A program made the translations under genes and the position numbers. From Acidobacteriaceae bacterium (GTDB lineage: Bacteria; Acidobacteriota; Terriglobia; Terriglobales; Acidobacteriaceae), in assembly GCA_003165795.1 (NCBI GenBank), contig PMWW01000051.1:1-52827 (forward strand): a DNA stretch of 52,827 bases, given 5' to 3'. The notes below the pieces were generated by a model that worked only from the letters and a program-made list of their open reading frames with translations, did no database searches and was not told where the DNA came from. Shown piece after piece: positions 2,555 through 24,833 of the stretch (position 1 is the stretch's first letter; every line of letters begins with the position of its first letter).

Positions 2555-2570
2555 TGTGATCGTCATCACA
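2555..2570. promoter_or_regulatory. CRP/FNR-family type palindrome upstream of nuoC
   Basis: TGTGATCGTCATCACA is a perfect TGTGA-N6-TCACA inverted repeat, the classical spacing of CRP-family sites. It ends 99 bases before the preferred nuoC start, inside the only long non-coding stretch (2400-2669) ahead of the operon. The site is seen directly; regulation of nuo by a CRP-like protein is inferred. Nothing else is recognisable in 2400-2669. Confidence 0.5.
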
Positions 2571-2669
2571 ACGCGACGTGACTATTACACCAGAACATGA
2601 CTGCCTCAAGCTGCTACAAATAAAGGGTTCCAGCACGAGCAAGAAGCGGTACAGAAGAGAGGCATGGCA

Positions 2670-3470
2670 ATGCCCGACGAAACCAAGAACCCGAACCCGG
2701 TCTTGCCTGAATCGGAGGCCCCAACCACCCCACAGTCGGGGCAGGCTGGGGAGGCTGACGCATCCGCTTCTTCAAGCGTGACGCCGGCGGCAGGAAACCC
2801 CGATACCTCGGCAGAGCAATCGGTTTCTCTGCCTGCAAAACCTGAAGCCGCAGCGAAACTTGATGGGCCGGCCAAGCCAGTCGCCGCCCCAGCGACCGGC
2901 GAAAAGCCTGCAGCTCCGGTCGCCGCCAAGCCGGCCGCGAAACCCGCTCCCAAGCCCGAAGGGCCCAAGCCGGAGCCGTGGGATTCCGATCTGGTGGGCC
3001 GGCTGCGCAGCCAGTACGGTTCAGGAATTCGGGAAGCCAGCACCTACCTGGGTCAAAAATATCTGGTGCTCGACAGCACCATCCTCTACGAAATTCTGCT
3101 GCGCATGAGGAACGACGAACTCTTCGACTACTGCGTGGACATCACCGCAGTCCATTATCCGAAGCGGGAAGCGCAGTTCGACATCATCTACGTCTTGTAC
3201 TCCTTCCATCACAATGAGCGGGTGCGGATCAAGAGCTACATCAAGGAAGACGAACATCTTCCCACGGCAGTCGGTATTTGGGAGACGGCCAACTGGCTGG
3301 AGCGCGAGGTCTACGACATGTTCGGCATCGTCTTCGACGGACATCCGGACCTGAAGCGCATTCTGATGCCCGATGGCTGGAAAGGCCATCCGCTGCGCAA
3401 GGATTATCCGATTCTTCAGCAGGACCAGGAATGGGTGAAAATCAACCTGGGTATCGAGAGTGGACAATGA
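2670..3470 (+). CDS. nuoC: NADH-quinone oxidoreductase subunit C
   Basis: Subunit of the peripheral arm of respiratory complex I, at the Fe-S to quinone connection. The family signature is clear: the [20 protein letters not shown] segment followed by [18 protein letters not shown] near the C-terminus. The first 100 or so residues are unusual, a low-complexity Pro/Ala/Lys/Glu-rich extension not present in ordinary NuoC proteins; homology begins around [14 protein letters not shown] 2670 is preferred because AGAGAGG ends seven bases before it. ATG 2664 (two residues longer) is nearly touching that site. The gene overlaps nuoD by four bases (ATGA), implying translational coupling. nuoA and nuoB, the usual upstream neighbours, are missing. 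Confidence 0.93.
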
Positions 3471-10119: not shown

Positions 10120-10740
10120 ATGGCGACCTACTTCATCACGATTTGCGCGTACACGCACTGCAACCTCTTCCAGAGGTCGGAAGTCGCTCAACTCATGGCG
10201 GCCACGCTCTTCAACTATCGTGATGCTGGAGAGTTCGAACTACACGAATACGTGATCATGCCCGACCACATTCACGTATTGCTTTCTCTGCATGACGAAC
10301 AGAAGTTGAGCCGCGCGATTCAACTGATCAAGGGTGGTTTTTCGCACACACTTGGTGAGAACGGAATCATGTTCCGCGAGGTTTGGCAGCAACGCTATCA
10401 TGATCGCCGCATCCGCGATGACAACGAATTTGCGGAGATCGCAGAATACATTCGGCAGAACCCGGTGCGGTGCGGGCTCGTGGAGCGCGCAGAAGAGTAT
10501 CCGTATTCGTCCGCTAAAGTGCCGGGGCTGAAGCCCCTTCTTAATAAAAAAGAAACGGTTAACGCGAGCCTGAAGGCTCGCTCTACCGATCCTGCCGGTG
10601 CCGCGATTACCAGCGGGGAGGTTCGCTCTCGGGATTTCTCTGGTAGCGCGCACGCCAGCCTGAAGACTGACTGCGCCGATGTTGCCAGAACGCAGGACAT
10701 GGGCCTGAAGGCCCACGATGAAATTTTTGTAACACGGTGA
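10120..10740 (+). CDS. REP-associated tyrosine transposase (RAYT, Y1/HUH family)
   Basis: A single-strand DNA transposase-like enzyme of the TnpA_REP group, thought to bind and cut REP hairpins. The HUH metal motif is H50-I-H52 in EYVIMPDHIHVLL, and the candidate nucleophile is Tyr110 in EYIRQNPVRCGLV. WQQRYHDRRIRD is also typical. Homology stops near residue 132 (YPYSSAK). The remaining 70 or so residues are translated REP palindromes (for example NASLKARST from GCGAGCCTGAAGGCTCGCTC), so the original stop has probably been lost or overrun. It lies between nuoL and nuoM, same strand, bracketed by inverted REPs. Key residues are intact, so activity is possible. Confidence 0.85.
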   Translation: MATYFITICAYTHCNLFQRSEVAQLMAATLFNYRDAGEFELHEYVIMPDHIHVLLSLHDEQKLSRAIQLIKGGFSHTLGENGIMFREVWQQRYHDRRIRDDNEFAEIAEYIRQNPVRCGLVERAEEYPYSSAKVPGLKPLLNKKETVNASLKARSTDPAGAAITSGEVRSRDFSGSAHASLKTDCADVARTQDMGLKAHDEIFVTR

Positions 10741-12527: not shown

Positions 12528-14084
12528 GTGACCACCTCGCTGACGCAATCCTTGTCGTTTTACTTTTCCAGCACCGACTATCTGTTGGCGTTGCCCATGT
12601 TGCTGCTGACGCTGTTCGCGCTCGGCATCCTCATGATCGATCTGCTGCTGCCCAAGCAGTGGAAACAGGTCAACGCTCTTACCGCTCTGGCCGGCCTGGC
12701 GTTTTCGGCGGCGGCAGTAGGGAAGCTGCATTGGGCCTATCACGTCGCGCAGCGCCAAGGCCTGCCTTTCGTCGATACCGGCTTCATGGGATCGTTGCTC
12801 GTCGATCCGTTCGCGCTCTACTTTTTCTACTTGTTCCTCGCCGGAGGGGCGATCGCCGTCCTGATGTCGATTCGCTACCTCGAGATCGAACGCGAGAACC
12901 ACGGCGAATTCTACGCCCTCCTGCTGTTCTCCATCGTCGGCATGATGTGCATGGCCGCCGGCTATGACATTGTCCTGATTTTCATTGGCCTGGAACTGAT
13001 GGCCATCTCGACCTACGTGCTGGTCGGTTTCCTGCGCCGCGACAAGCGCTCCAACGAAGCCGCGCTGAAGTATCTGCTGCTGGGCGCATTCTCCTCGGGC
13101 ATCTTCGCCTACGGCCTGTCATTGTTCTACGGTCTCACCGGAAGCACCAATCTGGCAGGGATTGCCCAAGGTCTGCAACAGATCATCGCCACCCGTCCTA
13201 ACGATCCCATCGTCATCTTTGCGCTGCTGGCTACCACGACGGGACTGCTGTTCAAGATTGCCGCGGTGCCGTTTCATCAGTGGGCGCCTGATGCCTATGA
13301 AGGCGCGCCCACCAGTGTCACCGGATTCATGTCGGTGGCGGTCAAGTCCGCGGGCTGGGCAATGCTGCTGCGTATCTTCCTCTTCGGACTGTATCCGCTG
13401 CGCTCGATCTACGTGCCGATGTTGATCTTCGTGGCCATCGCTACCATGACCGGAGGCAATCTGGCCGCGATGACCCAGACCAACCTGAAGCGGCTGCTGG
13501 CCTACTCGTCGATCGCGCACGTGGGTTACATGTTGCTGGGTCTGATCGCCAGCGATGGCCGCAACAACTCCACCGGCATCATGGCCATCCTGATCTACCT
13601 TCTGGTGTACACCTTCATGAACCTGGGCGCCTTCGCGGTGATCACCTCGCTGCGTCGCCGCAACATTATCGGCGATGAGATTGACGACATCGCGGGGCTC
13701 TATTTCAAAGCGCCAACAGAAGCTATCCTGATGCTGGTGTTTCTGCTGTCACTGGCTGGAATCCCGCCGCTGGCGGGCTTCTGGGGCAAGTACTTCATCT
13801 TCCTCAGCCTGATTCAGACGGGACACTATGTGCTGGCCTCGGTCGCCGTGCTGTATGCGGTCATCAGCATGTACTACTACATGCGCATTGCCAATGCCAT
13901 GCTGATGCGCCAGCCAATCGAAGCAGAACCGGTACGCCTCGGTCCATCCATGCGGCTGGCGCTGACCATCACCGCGCTGGGAACGGTCGGCATCGGATTG
14001 TTCCCCAACTTCTTCATCAACGCGGTTAACTGGTCGCTGGGGCTGACCCAGGGCTCGCAACACATGGCTGCGCTTCTGCGATGA
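12528..14084 (+). CDS. nuoN: NADH-quinone oxidoreductase subunit N
   Basis: A 518-residue antiporter-like membrane subunit, the last gene of the cluster. Visible family features include LELMAISTYVLVGFLRRD, VPFHQWAPDAYEGAPTSV with TGFMSVAVKSAGW, and LAYSSIAHVGYMLLGL. It starts at GTG 12528, with GAGGA eight bases upstream. No terminator is seen directly after it; the downstream sequence is a transposase scar and contains no further nuo gene. Confidence 0.95.
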   Translation: MTTSLTQSLSFYFSSTDYLLALPMLLLTLFALGILMIDLLLPKQWKQVNALTALAGLAFSAAAVGKLHWAYHVAQRQGLPFVDTGFMGSLLVDPFALYFFYLFLAGGAIAVLMSIRYLEIERENHGEFYALLLFSIVGMMCMAAGYDIVLIFIGLELMAISTYVLVGFLRRDKRSNEAALKYLLLGAFSSGIFAYGLSLFYGLTGSTNLAGIAQGLQQIIATRPNDPIVIFALLATTTGLLFKIAAVPFHQWAPDAYEGAPTSVTGFMSVAVKSAGWAMLLRIFLFGLYPLRSIYVPMLIFVAIATMTGGNLAAMTQTNLKRLLAYSSIAHVGYMLLGLIASDGRNNSTGIMAILIYLLVYTFMNLGAFAVITSLRRRNIIGDEIDDIAGLYFKAPTEAILMLVFLLSLAGIPPLAGFWGKYFIFLSLIQTGHYVLASVAVLYAVISMYYYMRIANAMLMRQPIEAEPVRLGPSMRLALTITALGTVGIGLFPNFFINAVNWSLGLTQGSQHMAALLR

Positions 14085-14337
14085 GCGGGCGCGCAACCGC
14101 ATCGAAGTAGAAGATCGAGTAAGCGTCGGGCTGCGCTGCTGCCGCGGTGGCCTTTCTGCCAATGCCCCAGCTGGCAAACTTGAAGGGCCGGGTTGTCGCA
14201 GGGTTGAGGCCGATGTCGCCGACCGCCGTGCACTTCTGCCGACAGTAAGCAATACTGAACAGACAGGGCCGGTGATTTCTCGTATTTCTCCGAATCATAA
14301 CGGCAGAATCCCGGCAGTCGGCCACGACAGAGCACAG

Positions 14338-14665
14338 GGACTCTGACTCAGTCTCCACCACACCTTCCACTCCGCTGGCATAGTTGCAAAAGCTGCTCCA
14401 CTCCCAGTTTTCCGGCTTCTCCACCAGCCTTCGCTTCACCGGGTTGCGATGGAGATAGCGCAACTTCTCAATCCGCTTCTTCGCCGTCCGTACATTAAAG
14501 TCGTAATAGCGCGCCTGCCAGAAATGCTTTCTCTCGCCAATCAACTGGCGCGACACCGCTTGCTTCAACGCCTGCACCGCCGTCGCCAGAGTATTGCGCT
14601 GGGGCTCGCTCACCAGCAGATGCACATGCTCCGGCATGACGACATAGCCGGTTACAAAGAAGTCG
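14338..14665 (-). pseudogene. truncated second RAYT (TnpA_REP) gene
   Basis: On the minus strand, FFVTGYVVMPEHVHLLVSEP carries the HUH motif (H-V-H), and YLHRNPVKRRLVEKPENWEW with SSFCNYASG carries the catalytic tyrosine region of a RAYT different from the one at 10120. The N-terminal part before the HUH strand is missing: the frame meets an unrelated transposase fragment at about 14665. After about residue 100 the normal C-terminus (...VVETES) runs into unrelated sequence towards nuoN (14085-14337 shows no other feature). It is a remnant and unlikely to be active. Confidence 0.75.
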
Positions 14666-15331
14666 TGGTTTGTCGATCTGTTGCATCAGTTAGGCCATGA
14701 AGTGTGGATCGGAGATGCCGCCGAGATCCGCGCCAGTTATGTGCGCCGGCAGAAGACGGATCGTCGCGACGCGGGGCACATTCTGAAGCTGCTGCGGGAA
14801 GGCCGCTTTCCGCGGTTGTGGACGCCGAGCCGGGAGCAGCGCGATCTGCGGCAGTTGCTGATTCATCGGCATAAGCTGGTGCAGATCCGCAGCCGAGTGA
14901 AGAACGGACTGCAACATCTGGCGATGAATCAGGGAATGCAGAAGCAGTCGCGGCTGTGGAGCGTGGCCGGACAGCAAGCTTTCCGTCAGTTACCGCTGGT
15001 GGGATGGACCGAGTGCCGGCGTCACGATTTGCTCGAACTGCTGGTGTATCTGGACGCGCAGATTGCGCCTTTGGATCGGGCCGCGCAACAAGCGGCCGAG
15101 CAGGATCCACAGGCGCGGTTGTTGCTGACCCAGCCGGGAGTCGGGCCGATCACGGCCCTGGCGTTCGTAGTGACCATCGGTGCGGTGACGCGTTTTCCAC
15201 TTTCGCACCGGCGACGGCGGCTGGAGGTTCGCATAGAAGAATCATGGTCGAAGTTGTGGCCGAATCGATGGTTGGTGGAACGAGGTAGGTTCCACCGGGA
15301 CGTGATTAATCGCGAGATTCTCCGGTGTTAG
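14666..15331 (+). pseudogene. IS110-family transposase remnant
   Basis: The frame reads WFVDLLHQLGHEVWIGDAAE then RRQKTDRRDAGHILKLLREG, typical of the N-terminal DEDD (RuvC-like) domain of IS110/IS116/IS902 transposases. LTQPGVGPITALAFVVTIGA marks the C-terminal transposase-20 domain. The first 60 or so residues are absent, replaced by the RAYT remnant. After VTRFP the sequence leaves the family, lacking the catalytic serine region. About 180 family-like residues remain of the usual 340-400. No terminal repeats are recognisable. Confidence 0.75.
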
Positions 15332-18010: not shown

Positions 18011-19402
18011 CTACCGGGCAAGTACGGCATCGGCAGCAGCCACTTTGGCTGCATCCGACGCGCGTTCCTTCTCTCCCACTTCATCCAGCTGAAGATGCTT
18101 GGTCTCTGGAGAGTACAGCAGGCTAACGAAGGTCATAATCGCGCCGATCGTCAGGATCACGGCTGGGGAAAGCCAGGTGTCCTGGCCTTCGATGGCATGA
18201 ACAAATGGGATCTTATGTGCCCAGAGTACGTAGATTGGGAACCAGGCTCCGAGAATGGCACCCGCCGAGTAGCCGAAACCTACTCCCGCTGCGCGACGCT
18301 TGGTGGGGAACCGCTCACATAGATACGCCGGGACTACGCCCCAGGCCAGCTTTAGCATTCCAGCCATACACGTCCCCAGAATAGCCATCCGAATATTGCG
18401 GGCCAGCGCTGCATGATACAGCACGTAAAACACCGGGACGCCGAAAACCACCAGGAAGACGCAGTACCACTGGGTCAGAATCTTGCGGCCCGTCTTATCT
18501 GAGATCCAGCCGTAGAAGTTGTATCCCAGGAAGGAGAGGAACAGCGCAAATCCATAAATCAGGCTGTAGGTTGTGGTATCAAAACCTCGCCCGTCCAGAG
18601 TAAGAATTTTCGGTAGAAATCCGTAAACCGAGTAGTCCGTCAGGAACAGGCCGGTCATGAAGACAAAGACTTGCAGGAAGTCCCACAACTGGGGACGCCG
18701 GAACAGGGAGAAGAAAGGAGCCTTCTCGATATTCCCTTTGGCCTTGGTTTTCTCGAATTCGGGCGACTCATGCAGATTGCCTCGAATCCAGAGAGCCAGA
18801 AATACCGGAATGACCCCGGTCATGAATGCGATCCGCCAACCATACTGGTAAAGGATAGCTTTGCCGGCGAAGTAGGAAATCGCTGCGAAGACCAGGGACG
18901 CAAGCACATAGCCCAGCGGGAAGCCTGATTGAATAAACCCGCTGATGGCTCCGCGACGAGCTTGGGGAGCATATTCGATGGCGAAAGTGTGGCCTACCGC
19001 ATACTCGCCCCCGAAGAAACAGCCCATAAAGAAGCGCAGGACGCAATACAGGACATAGGCCAGCACGCCTACCTGTTGGTAGGTGGGAAGGAAGCCGGAA
19101 AGAAGCGACATGACTCCGACGCCGCCTATAGTAAAAAGCAACAGGAAACGGCGGCCGATCTTATCGGCGTACGCTCCAAAGAATGCGGATCCGACAGGCC
19201 GGGCGGCCATGGTAATCGAATATCCAAGTACAACCGCGATGTATTGCCAAAGCAGGCTGCCCTTTGGTGAGATGAAAATCTTGCCCAAGATAGGAGCCAT
19301 GACAATGACCATTGCCATGTCGTAGGCGTCCAGCATGAATCCCAAAAATTGGGACGACATGGCCATCTTGGTATCTTTGGATAGGTGTTGCTGTTCCGGC
19401 AT
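18011..19402 (-). CDS. MFS carboxylate/sugar-acid type permease
   Basis: A 463-residue, 12-helix major facilitator. The loop 2-3 signature is GAYADKIGRRFLLLFTIGGV, and the second-half counterpart is YGWISDKTGRKILTQ. GGEYAVGHTFAIEYAPQARR is typical of the metabolite:H+ symporter/sialate-lactate branch. Substrate cannot be fixed from sequence, but the divergent DcaP-like porin and the nearby D-lactate dehydrogenase favour a hydroxy- or dicarboxylate. ATG 19402 is preceded by AGGAGCACTT on the coding strand. A TCAC-N8-GTGA palindrome lies 80 bases upstream. It ends with its own terminator. Confidence 0.8.
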   Translation of the reverse strand: MPEQQHLSKDTKMAMSSQFLGFMLDAYDMAMVIVMAPILGKIFISPKGSLLWQYIAVVLGYSITMAARPVGSAFFGAYADKIGRRFLLLFTIGGVGVMSLLSGFLPTYQQVGVLAYVLYCVLRFFMGCFFGGEYAVGHTFAIEYAPQARRGAISGFIQSGFPLGYVLASLVFAAISYFAGKAILYQYGWRIAFMTGVIPVFLALWIRGNLHESPEFEKTKAKGNIEKAPFFSLFRRPQLWDFLQVFVFMTGLFLTDYSVYGFLPKILTLDGRGFDTTTYSLIYGFALFLSFLGYNFYGWISDKTGRKILTQWYCVFLVVFGVPVFYVLYHAALARNIRMAILGTCMAGMLKLAWGVVPAYLCERFPTKRRAAGVGFGYSAGAILGAWFPIYVLWAHKIPFVHAIEGQDTWLSPAVILTIGAIMTFVSLLYSPETKHLQLDEVGEKERASDAAKVAAADAVLAR

Positions 19403-19481: not shown

Positions 19482-19497
19482 TCACGGCTGTTTGTGA
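19482..19497. promoter_or_regulatory. TCAC-N8-GTGA palindrome upstream of the MFS gene
   Basis: TCACGGCTGTTTGTGA lies 80 bases upstream of the permease start. It has the same half-sites and spacing as parts of the elements in front of the porin and the D-lactate dehydrogenase, though only two half-sites are present here. Confidence 0.35.
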
Positions 19498-19709
19498 CGG
19501 ATAACCATTGGAAACGCTTTTTTCGCGAGGCTCGGCGAGGGCGTTCAATCACTGGACATTGCTTGCCCTGAGCGTCTAAGTCCGGGAGCCATTACCACAA
19601 AAGTTGCATTGGTTTGGTCGCGGGTTGTAACCCGGGTCTAAAGTTGAGCTAAGCCCGCTATTGACGGTACTGCGGAAGGTTTCAGCGTCCGGCTTTATCA
19701 CAAATGAAA

Positions 19710-19736
19710 TGTGCGGTTTATCACAATGTAATGTGA
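19710..19736. promoter_or_regulatory. three-half-site operator-like element before the porin
   Basis: The pattern TGTGC-N6-TCACA-N6-TGTGA has half-sites at 19710, 19721 and 19732, exactly 11 bp apart. An additional TCACA lies at 19698. The first pair has CRP-site spacing; the second pair is everted. The element ends 137 bases before the porin start. The same pattern is found at 24678-24704. The rest of the 19403-19873 gap shows no gene. Confidence 0.5.
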
Positions 19737-19873
19737 GGGATGTCCGCCTTGCGCACTGGCCTCCTCCCTTACAGTTCCGCGCAGGCCAATCCACAGGTGG
19801 AGCCCCAGGACGTAGGCCCGACGGCATTAGACATTCCATCTGAGATGACTGGCGCTAACTCCTGGAGGCGAAG

Positions 19874-21853
19874 ATGCGTGAGTATTTCCGGTCACCGGCA
19901 ATAACCCTAATCACTATTGCATGTCTCTTGATGCCAGCGATTCTATCGGCGGCAGATTCAAGCGCCCCCGCCGCGGACCCAACTAGCGCGGCGGCGGCAG
20001 CCGCTCCCAACACTAGTGGCGCCAGCGTGGGCACGGTTATTAATCCAACCCTAGTCGATCTACTGGTGAAGAAAGGCGTCCTGACCACGTCGGAAGCCAA
20101 CAGTCTGAAAAACGTTTCCGGCTCCGCAGGAATGGACCAGTTACTCCTATTACTGAAGGCGAAGGGCGTGGTAACTGCCACGGAAGCGGCTGATCTGAAA
20201 AGCGCCAACGCCGATGCCGATACGATGCATTCGCTCGTCGACATAGAGTCGGGCGGAGGGCAGAGTGCAAACCTGACCAACAGTCAGGTGCAGAACAAAC
20301 CTCCCGAGCCGACTGGACCGACGGTCATTCCGGCCATCGCACCGGTACGGGTGCTCCCGCTTGATCCGCCGACCAAGGATGGCATGGCTGGCATTAAGCT
20401 AGGTTCGGGCGCAAAGATCTCGCCCTACGGCTTCATCAAGGCCACCGAGGCGTATGACTCACTTGATCCTACCGGGGATGATTTTCCCCGGCCGGGCTTC
20501 ACGGCTGCCGATACCGGCCCGACTAAGAATCCCGAATGGCATATGAAAGCGCGTTCCACCCGCATCGGGTCCAAGTTCGAATGGCCTGACATCTCTAAGA
20601 ACGTCACCATCACCGGACAAATCGAGGGCGACTTTGAGGGCAACTTTAGCGCCGTTGACAACCGCAACGTCTCCAGCATCAGGAGCAATGCGTTTCAGCT
20701 GCGTCTGGCCTTCGGGCGAATCGACTGGACCACGGCGCCTAACACGGACATCTTCTTTGAAGCCGGACAAGACTGGACCATCTTCGGCTCCAGCGCGCTG
20801 ATGAACCTATTCGAGACGACGTTCTATGGTGCTTACTGGGGCAATCTTTACGAGCGCTCTCCGCAGATGCGCCTAGGGGTGGTGCAGAAATTAGGCGGCT
20901 CGCGTGACTGGAAGTTCTCCCCCGAATTTGCGATCATGATGCCGTCCGAGGGCGATCTCCCAGTAAGTAGCGTTACTTGCACCGTCAAAGCACTGGATAC
21001 AGCCACAACCTGCACCCTGGTCAACGGGCTGGCAAGCCAGATCGGATATGGCGAGCGTGAGGGCGCAGACTCGTCTCGTCCAGAGGTGGAGTCCAGAGCT
21101 GTCTTGCAATTCCAACTGGACAAAGCTCCCGGCGTTGTTCCAGCCCAGATCCTGTGGAGCGGGTTCTACGCCTCCCGCCAGGATACAGTGCTAGCTTCAG
21201 CCGTGCCGGCGGATTACAAAGCTGCCTTCCCGACCGGGGTTGACACCCACAGCAACGGTTACGGCAATCAGATAGCAATCTCACTCCCCACCCGCTGGGC
21301 GACGGTGGTGGCTAGCGGCTACATGGGAGCCGACCTGAGATTCTTTTTTGGCGGCCAGACCTTGTCTTACTACAACCACACGGCGGGGCTGACCAATACA
21401 GCCGATGGCGCGGCGGTGGACAATTCCGCCGTGGTTTTTGGCACTAACGCGGCTGGGCAGTCAGTCTATGCACCCCAACTGCCGGTGCGAGGCTACGGCG
21501 GATTCGTTCAGGTCGGATTCCCCATCTCGCGCTGGTTCAACGCCGAGCCAAAAGGCAGAAATGCCGGCTGGCAGGCCTTCTTCGAGTACGGCTTGGATGC
21601 GGCCAATGCCAATGACTTCAGGCTTGATAAAGACGTTGGCGTGGACGGCGCCGGGCCTATCAAGGGCTCAATCAAGGCCGCAACCATCTTCTATAAGATG
21701 AACCCTTGGGTCCAGTTTGGCTTTGAAGAGAGCAATTACTCCAGCTACGCGGTTCCGGCCAATAGCGGTCTTTGCACCACGAAGGTCGCCGGTGTGCCAA
21801 CGTGCACTTCGGTCGATTGGCGTTCGGAGTTCGGACCGGTGTTCACCTTCTAG
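19874..21853 (+). CDS. DcaP-like outer-membrane porin
   Basis: A 659-residue outer-membrane beta-barrel. The signal peptide covers about residues 1-27 (ending LSAADS). A periplasmic segment contains two similar helical units, LLVKKGVLTTSEA and LLKAKGVVTATEA. From about residue 175 (AKISPYGFIKATEAYD) strands alternate as in DcaP/OprP-type porins, with FFEAGQDWTIFGSSALMNLF and a C-terminal aromatic ending (FGPVFTF). DcaP-type porins admit dicarboxylates and other organic anions. ATG 19874 follows TGGAGG. The context of a divergent MFS permease and shared operator-like element supports organic-acid uptake. The exact solute is not determined. Confidence 0.75.
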   Translation: MREYFRSPAITLITIACLLMPAILSAADSSAPAADPTSAAAAAAPNTSGASVGTVINPTLVDLLVKKGVLTTSEANSLKNVSGSAGMDQLLLLLKAKGVVTATEAADLKSANADADTMHSLVDIESGGGQSANLTNSQVQNKPPEPTGPTVIPAIAPVRVLPLDPPTKDGMAGIKLGSGAKISPYGFIKATEAYDSLDPTGDDFPRPGFTAADTGPTKNPEWHMKARSTRIGSKFEWPDISKNVTITGQIEGDFEGNFSAVDNRNVSSIRSNAFQLRLAFGRIDWTTAPNTDIFFEAGQDWTIFGSSALMNLFETTFYGAYWGNLYERSPQMRLGVVQKLGGSRDWKFSPEFAIMMPSEGDLPVSSVTCTVKALDTATTCTLVNGLASQIGYGEREGADSSRPEVESRAVLQFQLDKAPGVVPAQILWSGFYASRQDTVLASAVPADYKAAFPTGVDTHSNGYGNQIAISLPTRWATVVASGYMGADLRFFFGGQTLSYYNHTAGLTNTADGAAVDNSAVVFGTNAAGQSVYAPQLPVRGYGGFVQVGFPISRWFNAEPKGRNAGWQAFFEYGLDAANANDFRLDKDVGVDGAGPIKGSIKAATIFYKMNPWVQFGFEESNYSSYAVPANSGLCTTKVAGVPTCTSVDWRSEFGPVFTF

Positions 21854-21875
21854 CAACCCACAACCTCTGGACTGG

Positions 21876-21912
21876 AACGGGCGGCCGCGCGAGTGAGTCG
21901 CCCGTTTTCTTT
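21876..21912 (+). terminator. rho-independent terminator after the porin
   Basis: Stem AACGGGCG (21876-21883) pairs with CGCCCGTT (21899-21906), followed by TTCTTT, 22 bases after the porin stop. Confidence 0.8.
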
Positions 21913-22025
21913 GCCAGATTCAAGCTCAGTAAACTCGCCCGATTCGGAATATCGGTAAGTGCGTTGACCGCCGGATAGCGCGTCTTTAAGATGAGCGCAG
22001 CGGAGACGCCGCCAGGAGGCTCTTT

Positions 22026-22391
22026 ATGCGCAAGGCAATGATACTGACTTTCGTGCTGCCGATTTTGACCATTTGCTTACAAGGGCAATCAGCTGGTCCG
22101 TCGTCCGGTGCTGAACCGCCTTCCGGCAAAGCGTCCGACTTGACCACGCTTGCAGGGTGTCTGCGCATCGACAGCAATCATTATCTACTCACCGAGACCA
22201 ATGGGCCCACCCATCAACTTTCGGGGGCTGCTAATAAGCTTGGGCACCAGGTTGGCCGTCAAATCGAAGTTACCGGCAAACCCGGGATCAAGACTGTAGA
22301 CAGTACGCTGGCAGGTGCTGGATCAAGTGCGGTCGAGCAGCCGGTGTTCGAAGTAAGAACCGTGAAGCGCATAGCGGACGCGTGCCAATAG
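22026..22391 (+). CDS. small secreted protein, DUF5818-like, copy 1
   Basis: A 121-residue protein with a signal peptide (residues 1-about 21, ending CLQGQSA) and a small domain carrying TTLAGCLRIDSNHYLLTETN and LGHQVGRQIEVTG. The pattern GCL...Y.LT...G..Y.L...L..HVG..V.VTG resembles the DUF5818 domain frequent in Acidobacteriota; function unknown. It is the first of two tandem paralogues (the second at 22653). ATG 22026 has AGGAGG with a six-base spacer. One conserved cysteine lies in the GCL motif and another near the C-terminus (ADACQ). Confidence 0.72.
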   Translation: MRKAMILTFVLPILTICLQGQSAGPSSGAEPPSGKASDLTTLAGCLRIDSNHYLLTETNGPTHQLSGAANKLGHQVGRQIEVTGKPGIKTVDSTLAGAGSSAVEQPVFEVRTVKRIADACQ

Positions 22392-22652
22392 GGTGCCCGG
22401 TAAGCGGCCGACGATCTTCGGACCCGGATGGCGCGTACTGACACGGCCCTGGCTCCGCGGACCGGGTTACACAGGCGATGCGGCCAGCCCTGGTGCGGAC
22501 TGGAGAACAGGGGCAGACCAGCGCCGTGCCGTCCAGGACCTCACTGGAGAGAAGAAATAGGTTGTCTTCCAGTGGTAAGAGATACATAATCGCTCACGGG
22601 CTGGGAATAAATCGAAACCCGGCAACGGCGCAAGCCGAAAGGGAGGATGTTT

Positions 22653-23012
22653 GTGCGCAAGACAACGATGGTTACTGTAGCGCTCCTAATCACGGCAGTT
22701 TGGCTGCAAGTGCAAGCTGCAGGCCAGACTGCGGGCAAGACGTCCAGTCTTACTACCATTGAAGGCTGCCTGCAGTTCTCTGACAGCCATTACAGACTCA
22801 CCGACAGCAATGGCACCTCGTACCAACTCTCAAATGAAGCCAACAAGCTAACCCACTATGTCGGCCAACAAGTCAAGGTAACCGGTATGCCGGGCGTGAG
22901 GACAGTCGACACCACCACCCAAGGCGCTGAGTCGACCGCGAAGGAGCAGCCGGTTTTTAAGGTAAAGAGCGTGACAGGTATGGCCGGCACTTGCAAACCC
23001 GCTGGTCAGTGA
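22653..23012 (+). CDS. small secreted protein, DUF5818-like, copy 2
   Basis: A 119-residue paralogue of the preceding gene: TTIEGCLQFSDSHYRLTDSN and LTHYVGQQVKVTGMPGVRTV align along the whole length, and both end with a cysteine a few residues from the C-terminus. The start is taken as GTG 22653 (VRKTTMV...). GGGAGG stands six bases before it, exactly as in copy 1, while the in-frame ATG 22647 touches the ribosome site. The signal peptide ends near VQAAGQ. The 261-base gap between copies holds no recognisable element, so each may have its own promoter. Confidence 0.72.
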   Translation: MRKTTMVTVALLITAVWLQVQAAGQTAGKTSSLTTIEGCLQFSDSHYRLTDSNGTSYQLSNEANKLTHYVGQQVKVTGMPGVRTVDTTTQGAESTAKEQPVFKVKSVTGMAGTCKPAGQ

Positions 23013-23579
23013 TCTGCTGGCCGAAGGGGGAATTTCCGAAGCTGCCAAGGTGTTTGGCCACGTCGATCAAGTTCACCCTGGCGATGGTGTTTCCCCGGCG
23101 TGGATTGCCCTCCAGTTTGACCACATTGTATTTCACGAACGGGAAATGCCGTTCACGGCCAATCTGCGGGCGCTGGCGAGCATGATGGCGGTGCAGGACG
23201 CACAAGTGCCGTTGTTCGAGCCGGCCGCCACGCCGCCCAGCGCGGTGATGCTGGCCCCGCTGGGCGGCGATGCGGCCTTCCGTCCTGATAACCCGGAAAA
23301 GTCTTGGGGACGGGCAGTGCACTTCAGCGGTGCCCCGAATCCAGGCTGCGGCGGCCGGGTCGACCAGCCGGGCACCACAGGCGCACTCTGGATATTTCGC
23401 CTTACGCGTGCGGCGCTTACGGCTTTGGAAAAGGCCTAGTGATTGTGTACGACGGATTAAAAGACCCGGTGGGGAATATCGTCCTGGGATCGAAGAAGAA
23501 TGTCGTGGTGCACGCCGGCAGCGGTTTGTTGCTGCGGGCCGAGGCGGAGAAGCCTTCGGAAGATGCAGCCGTGCGGTAG
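22990..23579 (+). pseudogene. frameshifted remnant of a conserved acidobacterial protein
   Basis: A frame without a start reads KVFGHVDQVHPGDGVSPAWI, then ALQFDHIVFHEREMPFTANL and RALASMMAVQDAQVPLFEP, ending at 23439. It resembles the second half of exported proteins with a GSKxxGHVxQ...LxLxFDxIxxK..xxPL.A.L pattern. Around 23380 the plausible continuation switches frame to LDISPYACGAYGFGKGLVIV and GSKKNVVVHAGSGLLLRAEA, ending at 23579. The N-terminal half and start codon are missing because the frame emerges directly from the end of the preceding gene. Both the 5' loss and the frameshift argue for a decaying gene. Function unknown. Confidence 0.55.
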
Positions 23580-23620
23580 CTAGAATCTTGGTCTCCGGCT
23601 AACTTGAGCGCGTACGTGAC

Positions 23621-23652
23621 CCCCTCCCGTCGACGTTCGGAGGGGATTCTTT
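23621..23652 (+). terminator. probable terminator after the pseudogene
   Basis: Stem CCCCTCC/GGAGGGG (about 23621-23645) is followed by ATTCTTT. It may originally have served the decayed gene, and lies between it and the convergent gene ending at 23680. Confidence 0.6.
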
Positions 23653-23679
23653 GTCTAGCGGGTAAGAGCACTCCAATGG

Positions 23680-24483
23680 CTACTGCACATCGGTGACCTT
23701 GCCGCCAATGAACGTCACCTTCATATCGGGATAGTAGTCGATTTCCTTGGTTTTGAGGTTGACCACCTTCTGCGGCTGTCCGAAGATCGCCACGACCTGG
23801 TCCCTCGTCTGGCCGACGGAAATCGTCTTGGGTTGGGGTGGCGGCGCGTCCGGCGGCGGCGGAGGTGGCGGGATCGGCTTCATCGCTTGAGTATCGGGGG
23901 GCGGCGGCGAATTTTGAGCTGCGTTATCGTCGGGCTGTGCCGTTATCACCTCAGCGATGGTCTTCATCACGTCATCGGCCGGAGGCACCGTGTGTTTCTG
24001 GAACGGAATCTTTAATTGCCCATAGTAGCGAACGTCCTGGTAGGGATCGCTGTAGAAAACAAAGATGACGCCGTCATCCTTAACCGCAGACGCGACCATC
24101 CAGAATTTTTCTCCCGCCACAAATTTACGCTGCGGAACACTGCTAACAGTGGCACCTGGTTGAGCTTGACCTAAGGCCATATCCGTGGCGAGCGTAGCTC
24201 CGAAGCCCATTCCCAGCTTCCCGTCTTTGTAAGTGCTAGTTGGCGGAATCTTAGTATCAATGCTGAACATCAGGAGTCCGTCTTTGTGCAGCACCAGAAC
24301 GGAGCCTGCGGTGACGACGTCCGTCTTGTCATCCGTGGTTTTGGTTAACTTAAATTGTGAATTGAGCTTTTCCTGCAGCAGAGCTTTTTGGTCCCCGCTC
24401 TGAGGGTTAGCCGCCGGAGACTGGGAAAACGCCGAAGTCAAGAGAAAGCATAAGCCAATTGCGAAGGAACCGTATTTGAACAT
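23680..24483 (-). CDS. secreted protein with OmlA/SmpA-like C-terminal motif
   Basis: A 267-residue exported protein, signal peptide residues 1-about 20 (ending SAFSQS). An unknown alpha/beta domain follows (about residues 30-165: SVLVLHKDGLLMFSIDTK, GEKFWMVASAVKDDGVIFVF), then a proline-rich linker (PPPPPPPDAPPP). A short C-terminal module (ISVGQTRDQVVAIFGQPQKV) has the G-x-T-x-x-x-V-x-x-x-x-G-x-P pattern of SmpA/OmlA/BamE-type repeats. Function unknown. It is divergent from the D-lactate dehydrogenase gene; the operator-like element at 24678 lies in the shared 350-base gap. Confidence 0.65.
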   Translation of the reverse strand: MFKYGSFAIGLCFLLTSAFSQSPAANPQSGDQKALLQEKLNSQFKLTKTTDDKTDVVTAGSVLVLHKDGLLMFSIDTKIPPTSTYKDGKLGMGFGATLATDMALGQAQPGATVSSVPQRKFVAGEKFWMVASAVKDDGVIFVFYSDPYQDVRYYGQLKIPFQKHTVPPADDVMKTIAEVITAQPDDNAAQNSPPPPDTQAMKPIPPPPPPPDAPPPQPKTISVGQTRDQVVAIFGQPQKVVNLKTKEIDYYPDMKVTFIGGKVTDVQ

Positions 24484-24677
24484 GATTTCGCCTCACGCAG
24501 AACTAGGAAATGCTACAGAGAAAGTGCGGATTAATGGAACAGTGCATAATACTCTCGACCAAAGTCGCCAGCAAGATTTGGACAACAATTTCCCTACGCG
24601 TCGAGCGGCGGCGGATGGCTGCTGGGGGTCGAATCCGCTGCCGATCCCGTATCCCTGCAATAGCCTGCAACCCGTCC

Positions 24678-24704
24678 TGTGCCTTCCATCACAACCCATT
24701 GTGA
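24678..24704. promoter_or_regulatory. three-half-site operator-like element before the D-lactate dehydrogenase
   Basis: TGTGC-N6-TCACA-N6-TGTGA with half-sites at 24678, 24689 and 24700, identical in layout to 19710-19736. The inner part is a perfect TCACAA-N4-TTGTGA palindrome. It ends 129 bases before the dehydrogenase start. Nothing else is recognisable in 24484-24833. Confidence 0.5.
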
Positions 24705-24833
24705 CCAGCTTCCGCGCCTCGCCATGACCTGCTGCCTTAGATTCAGACTAGGCGCAGCACCGCGGGCAAAGGTCTTCCATCATCCGCCGTGTGCGTAGCT
24801 TGCCGGCACCGGCCGACAGGCGAAGGAACAACA

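Follow-up and report, generated by a model that had tools for sequence, protein, structure and literature searches.

At class II promoters, E. coli CRP reads the palindrome TGTGA-N6-TCACA by means of an R-E-x-x-x-R reading helix, with the center of the dimer near position -41.5, and FNR is a 4Fe-4S oxygen sensor with the half-site TTGAT. Promoters with tandem CRP sites are reportedly the subject of Joung 1993 and Tebbutt 2002, to judge by their titles. Both papers appear among the references of another article (PMC4417206). In the literature searched, in which subscription journals were thinly covered, neither a CRP/FNR regulon of Acidobacteria nor abutting everted CRP operators were found. 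The present analysis concerns a 52,827-bp window from the genome of an Acidobacteriaceae bacterium (G000; 4.95 Mb in 208 contigs), in which two related elements occur upstream of a porin-like gene, a dehydrogenase gene and nuoC, i.e., the everted pair TCACA-N6-TGTGA (element A) and the CRP palindrome TGTGA-N6-TCACA (element B).

On balance, elements A and B probably serve as the operators of a global regulon for energy metabolism, on which paralogous CRP/FNR regulators would bind as tandem dimers. The predicted system shares its palindrome and reading helix with E. coli CRP class II, and its B sites may sit near -42. Unlike E. coli CRP, the candidate regulators have no recognizable cAMP pocket signature and carry four cysteines, and an everted tandem seam would lie at A. 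As at tandem CRP promoters, two CRP-type dimers are proposed for one promoter; a possible difference is that here the dimers would abut at 22 bp, and that their seam would be a conserved everted palindrome. The CRP fold, an N-terminal CxxC with further cysteines and a respiratory regulon recall FNR, but here the cysteines form CX2CX8C plus one in an LCKG strand, and the half-site is TGTGA, not TTGAT. RedB (PMC9603854) is likewise a CRP/FNR-family regulator of energy metabolism, but is assigned to a subgroup of its own; the word Acidobacter is absent from that text on RedB.

The initial annotation had reported TGTGC-N6-TCACA-N6-TGTGA at 19710-19736 and 24678-24704, and both copies are exact at these positions. 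The gaps to the start codons were also borne out, with 137 bp to the porin ATG (19874) and 129 bp to the dehydrogenase ATG (24834), as was a TCACG-N6-TGTGA version upstream of the divergent major facilitator superfamily (MFS) gene (19482-19497, 79 bp from the start at 19402). The inner pattern TCAC-N8-GTGA is, as claimed, rare by chance: four occurrences were counted in the window versus 0.68 expected, and none of 100 shuffles reached four. An additional element, previously missed, lies upstream of nuoC (2555-2581). Moreover, the porin array holds an extra half-site (TCACA, 19698-19702) at N7 spacing, which is kept in the three relatives aligned.

Across the genome, exact A was found at 27 places and exact B at 20, versus 1 and 0, respectively, in the backwards control. 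When the spacer of the everted pair was varied from 0 to 20, 61 matches were obtained (15 in the control), and since 27 of these fell at N6, the other 20 spacers share only 34. Judged by a home-made gene call, just one of the 47 exact A and B sites, an A site of C104, is inside a gene (46 are outside), and each of the 47 is followed by a called gene start within 600 bp in at least one direction. A motif this short and palindromic might represent chance palindromes or structural inverted repeats such as terminators, but this explanation is hardly credible in view of the control counts of 0-1, the position of the sites outside genes and near downstream gene starts, their conservation and their fixed distance to -10-like hexamers.

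The triple pattern of three half-sites, with at most one mismatch, occurs 23 times in the genome versus 0 in the backwards control, and is thus frequent in unrelated leaders, the very outcome that the initial annotation had named as refuting its proposal. That proposal was a local regulon for the uptake and oxidation of hydroxycarboxylates. Porin and dehydrogenase do have the array in common and are near neighbors in three relatives; however, the same sites precede many other genes, including energy and CRP-family genes, and a regulon specific for hydroxycarboxylates is very improbable. The other part of that proposal, a dimeric factor of the CRP type bound to an array in phase with the helix, is supported insofar as sequence can tell. 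The elements are a genuine, conserved motif, most likely sites for CRP/FNR relatives, and what they mark is not a small lactate system but many energy-metabolism genes throughout the genome.

Both elements are built from a common half-site, TGTGAY, with the Y on the outside in A and on the inside in B. The next half-site occurs preferentially at exactly 11 bp beyond A (z=6.6 for the 27 own sites; z=5.4 in genomes G067 and G111, 16 of 56 sites) and beyond B (z=7.9), and no other offset in any of these sets exceeded z 3.2; the half-sites are thus one helical turn apart, as had been suggested. Among 120 A sites from five genomes, 29% of the sides carried a further half-site (at least 4/6 matches) versus a background of 5.1%. 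The "three half-sites" of the initial annotation are not a fixed unit: 62 of the 120 A sites had none beyond the pair, 46 had one and 12 had two, approximately the split expected for two independent sides. The Y beside TGTGA was equally strong in A sites with or without a further half-site. Four of the 27 own A sites have a half-site in common with a perfect B site, and this, along with the frequency of the triple pattern, would suit a single dimer that alternates between two mutually exclusive positions on overlapping palindromes with a common middle half-site. Most A sites, however, have no complete B partner and therefore usually offer no second register to switch to, so that such an arrangement is quite improbable.

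The genome also contains at least six everted pairs of the form TCACA-N16-TGTGA, whose spacer is about one helical turn longer than N6; these are possibly a looser tandem arrangement.

The position of the elements relative to the promoter was assessed by scanning the leaders with an E. coli-like -10 matrix. The porin (TACAGT) and dehydrogenase (TAGATT) hexamers both end 46.5 bp from the center of A. For all own A sites, -10-like hexamers peaked at 45.5 and 46.5 bp (z 4.3 and 3.7), with the maximum reached in 0 of 500 permutations. In the held-out A sites of G067 and G111 (56 sites, 59 directions), the top position was again 46.5 bp (z 5.49; 0 of 500 permutations), as it was in the 18 A sites of G169, from a further genus (z 4.1, p=0.007); for all 121 A sites, z was 7.98 at this distance. 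Among 52 single-direction A sites (own, G067 and G111), 35 showed such a hexamer within the 4 bp where it was predicted, versus 9-18 in seven other windows. The own B sites, by comparison, peaked at 35.5 bp (z 3.4, p of the maximum 0.054), and the same distance ranked first (z 3.18, p 0.10) in 27 held-out B sites, drawn from 16 of 46 places and from sites within other fetched stretches of several genomes; their third-ranked peak was at 56.5 bp (z 2.58). The shift between A and B amounts to 10-11 bp. If the end of the hexamer is counted as -7, B centers fall at about -42.5 and A centers at about -53.5, midway between -42.5 and -64.5, and the promoter-side TGTGA of A would therefore be the upstream half of a class II dimer.

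This geometry also bears on whether A and B have different binding proteins, with a separate dimeric regulator on the everted pair (near -53) competing with the CRP/FNR paralogues at overlaps. Half of the A sites lack a third half-site, and A is absent from some B-rich genomes, both of which would fit a separate protein. On the other hand, the half-site of A and B is identical, including the flanking Y, whether or not a third half-site is present; the phasing with further half-sites is exactly 11 bp; the promoter-side TGTGA of A, as deduced from the peak positions, lies 39-43 bp from the end of the -10 hexamer, where the upstream half of the B dimer lies; and A sites precede several CRP-family genes. 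We therefore consider a second binding protein rather unlikely. Rex, FNR and DnaA boxes were set aside, as the half-site and its flanking Y would not fit them.

According to the tandem-dimer model that we favor, each reading head of a paralogue would take one TGTGAY half-site. The half-sites would alternate in direction every 11 bp, and the same face of the helix would consequently present all of them. One dimer, in the class II position at about -42, would span a TGTGAY and a weaker half-site by the -35 region, and a second dimer would be located directly upstream, at about -64. The everted pair A would then be the seam where the two dimers touch, and contact between neighbors would allow one good half-site per dimer to suffice. 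The signal would probably be redox or oxygen, perceived via a four-cysteine cluster, and not cAMP. The observations themselves concern where and how often the sites occur, how they are phased and conserved, which genes adjoin them and how far away -10-like hexamers lie. We infer from this geometry that two dimers abut; which protein binds, its tandem occupancy, the activation and the signal are likewise proposals.

Several observations weigh against this model. The weak sides of the A sites barely exceed background (1.74 versus 1.58, z 2.2), and, because 62 of the 120 A sites lack an outer half-site scoring 4/6 or more, every second tandem pair would have to make do with two half-sites. A distance of 22 bp between two CRP dimers is tight, given the bending and footprints of CRP. 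The -10 matrix is an E. coli-like one, and the gene starts depend on our own gene call. In G199, a genome of the same genus (20 of 23 places), 46.5 bp was outranked by one other distance (z 2.56; p 0.0125 as a prespecified position, 0.40 for the maximum), and the B peak fails the max-over-positions test in both sets (p values given above). B-rich genomes can be devoid of A, as in G135 (17 B, 0 A) and G007 (9 B, 0 A). Finally, 12 of the 60 neighboring genes scanned have no Pfam family, and about half of the sites adjoin genes without an evident link to energy metabolism.

Candidate binders were sought among the CRP-fold proteins of the genome. There are 14 PF00027 matches, three of which (C53, C176 and C10) carry a helix-turn-helix (HTH) bearing SRETVTR, comparable to SRETVGR, the reading helix of E. 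coli CRP; the HTH-bearing rows of the alignment read RETVTR, RETVSR or RETVWR. The C53 protein matches PF00027, PF13545 and PF00325 and belongs to the CRP/FNR family, with all NCBIfam matches under the equivalog cut-offs. Among solved structures, regulators of the CRP/FNR family, including E. coli CRP, rank at the top, the best by sequence being 3h3u, 3d0s and 3i54 (probable CRP/FNR-family regulator). These three, which are presumably mycobacterial CRP, are the closest among solved structures, although their sensor region differs. Related proteins occur in G067, G111, G076, G022, G007 and G135, while no such CRP-family protein was found in the loci examined of G143 and G045, which are poor in A and B. 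In six of the seven genomes with the family (all but G135), its genes contain or follow A or B sites that score 9/10 or better. In the same-genus genome G199, exact A precedes three CRP-family genes.

The cAMP phosphate-binding cassette of CRP carries Arg-Ser; in the single paralogue compared (C176, GTPYEITAE versus GPRTSSA in the best solved match), no such cassette was recognizable by eye. In a 33-row alignment, the cysteines of CX2CX8C and of the LCKG strand are either all present (24 rows) or all absent (9 rows), and this all-or-none pattern suggests that metal or an Fe-S cluster is bound, by ligands other than those of E. coli FNR. The latter comprise three N-terminal cysteines and C122, whereas the column taken here for C122 (PCQ) is cysteine in only 13 of the 24 four-cysteine rows and in 2 of the 9 others. 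A fifth cysteine column, distinct from C122, is located in the helix after the roll (17 of 24 and 4 of 9 rows, respectively). Because the base of the CRP-family tree is open and its branches are long, clade statements are rough.

Headless (HTH-free) paralogues adjoin the C53-type gene in G000, G067, G111 and G022; the four cysteines are retained in three of these neighbors, the one in G022 lacking them. C54-type headless genes have an A site in front in the own genome, as do three relatives in G199. Loss of the HTH by frameshift was rejected, as no HTH remnant was detected in eight regions (best E 0.47). These proteins allow a different account of the everted pair, in which the pair itself is the functional unit and each half-site is held by the single head of a heterodimer of a full-length and a headless paralogue. 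The balance of headed and headless subunits would then shift the regulon between classical palindromes bound by two heads and everted seams with a pair of one-headed dimers abreast, and some headless genes, being behind such operators, would close a feedback loop. The 62 of 120 A sites with only the two inner half-sites and the recurrence of headless genes with A in front are consistent with this account, which we nevertheless regard as speculative and unlikely.

A second CRP subfamily, with the helix TRSRVSFFMN, is represented in the genome by C58, C157, C173 and C38 (a fragment, in which the helix was not seen). The RSRVSFF frame was found in G000, G076 and G135. As sole binder of A, this type was rejected, because no RSRVSFF frame was found in the loci of G067 and G111 (28 A sites each), in a search that left out one kinase-like PF00027 match in each genome.

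The genes next to the sites were examined for Pfam families (60 genes, four of them from near-miss triple sites, with corrected starts for the porin and NuoC). Among them are citrate synthase, aconitase, malic enzyme, an Sdh-type membrane subunit, and 2-oxoacid and pyruvate:ferredoxin oxidoreductases (PFOR). Others are a NuoB-type protein, NuoC, cytochrome bd subunit I (CydA), COX3, CcmC, CcmE and multihaem cytochromes, and further neighbors an AdhE-type protein, a CoA ligase, CstA, FeoA, HypF, an Fe-S CCG protein and, at a near-miss site, a universal stress protein. Two CRP-family genes, the full-length one of C53 and the headless one of C54, likewise adjoin sites, and B sites of 9/10 also precede C176 and the second C53 gene. 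Neighbors outside energy metabolism comprise MurB, PanB, a methyltransferase, a ketoacyl synthase, a HipA-like protein and more. As we judge it, genes of respiration, the tricarboxylic acid cycle, fermentation, cytochromes or related functions adjoin about half of the 47 exact sites (A and B), and a mixture of genes adjoins the rest, on the understanding that a site next to a gene is no proof of control and that divergent pairs are counted twice.

The comparison of leaders proposed in the initial annotation showed that the porin and dehydrogenase half-sites are kept before the orthologues in three close relatives, L200 (palsa_340), L203 (palsa_254) and L218 (bog_382); metagenome-assembled genomes from palsa and bog make up most of the closest named relatives. 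Among 34 relatives of the dehydrogenase, 28 leaders could be scanned, and exact A was present in these three, at -144 to -147, in leaders otherwise partly diverged. The 25 leaders without exact A are mostly from distant organisms or other phyla, but include the fairly close L201, L207, L209 and L224. A porin homologue is located upstream of the dehydrogenase in all three relatives (gaps of 251, 326 and 1211 bp), and its leader retains four half-sites at spacings N7-N6-N6; the porin leaders are diverged upstream of the array, while promoter and 5' leader are also well kept. In L313 of G199, a homologue of the dehydrogenase with 83% identity over 471 aa is preceded by an A site. The loci of the named relatives yielded no MFS homologue, which limits this comparison to the porin and dehydrogenase leaders. 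Conservation before other orthologues is only partial: any homologue of 59 target genes of G000 was found in 12 of 20 loci in G199 (20 of its 23 A places), 5 of 18 in G169 and 16 of 55 in G067 and G111, counts that include some weak or wrong-side matches.

In a sample of 149 genomes of the phylum, A was most numerous in G000 (27), G067 (28) and G111 (28), followed by G076 (9) and a few others with 5-8, and B was spread more broadly than A. In 70 genomes of the family, A totaled 455 versus 50 in the control, and 22 of the genomes were enriched (A at least 7 and at least 3x the control). The predicted operator design is common to part of the family.

The coordinates of the features are collected in Table 1. 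The name "D-lactate dehydrogenase" of the initial annotation is not established, as the NCBIfam matches GlcD (183.5 bits versus a cut-off of 567.9) and YdiJ (165.3 versus 1350) are far under their cut-offs; among solved sequences, LctD of a lactate dehydrogenase alone reaches E<=1e-20. The porin-like protein had no Pfam, NCBIfam or PHROGs match. Two similar 121-aa open reading frames (ORFs; 22026-22391 and 22647-23012), with signal-like N-termini by eye, sit with other sequence between porin and dehydrogenase, where the gap is shorter in L200, L203 and L218. The genes that follow NuoC in its run are nuo-like and are named provisionally. Within or just after this run lie ORFs 10120-10740, 14026-14637 and 14681-15331, which we take to be two REP-associated transposase-like ORFs and one IS110-like fragment.

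Table 1. Features of the window and CRP-fold genes elsewhere (window coordinates unless a locus is given).
Feature	Position	Strand	Remark
B palindrome TGTGATCGTCATCACA plus third half-site CGTGA, upstream of nuoC	2555..2581		
NuoC	2664..3470	+	PF00329; heads run of nuo-like genes
MFS metabolite/H+ symporter-like permease	18011..19402	-	NCBIfam matches under cut-offs
Near-A site (9/10), 79 bp before divergent MFS gene	19482..19497		by eye without clear -10 at 46.5 bp
Half-site TCACA, outermost of porin array, N7 to next	19698..19702		kept in 4/4 aligned porin leaders
Half-site TGTGC, distal outer half of porin array	19710..19714		TGTGA in three relatives
Everted core TCACA-N6-TGTGA (A) upstream of porin	19721..19736		in relatives TGTGA is CGTGA or GGTGA
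TCCGC at next half-site's place, porin array	19743..19747		weak (2/5) but invariant in 4 leaders
-10-like TACAGT	19770..19775	+	end 46.5 bp from A center; inside conserved block of leader alignment
Porin-like outer-membrane protein, 659 aa	19874..21853	+	label taken over from initial annotation
Half-site TGTGC, distal outer half of dehydrogenase array	24678..24682		
Everted core TCACA-N6-TGTGA (A) upstream of dehydrogenase	24689..24704		exact in L200, L203, L218
TCCGC at next half-site's place, dehydrogenase array	24711..24715		retained in L200, L203, L218
-10-like TAGATT	24738..24743	+	end 46.5 bp from A center
FAD / 4Fe-4S 2-hydroxyacid dehydrogenase, 954 aa	24834..27698	+	substrate not settled
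HTH-bearing CRP/FNR paralogues, G000	C53:12896-13729, C176:56905-57618, C10:4213-5070		
Headless CRP-fold paralogues, G000	C53:12207-12782, C54:45243-45752	-	
Headless CRP-fold paralogues, G199	L315, L319, L321		

For soil and peatland Acidobacteria, these results predict a global regulon, point to its likely regulators and outline a geometry of its promoters. If the seam reading is true, the elements would represent a further way for CRP-family dimers to act, i.e., as an abutting cooperative array.

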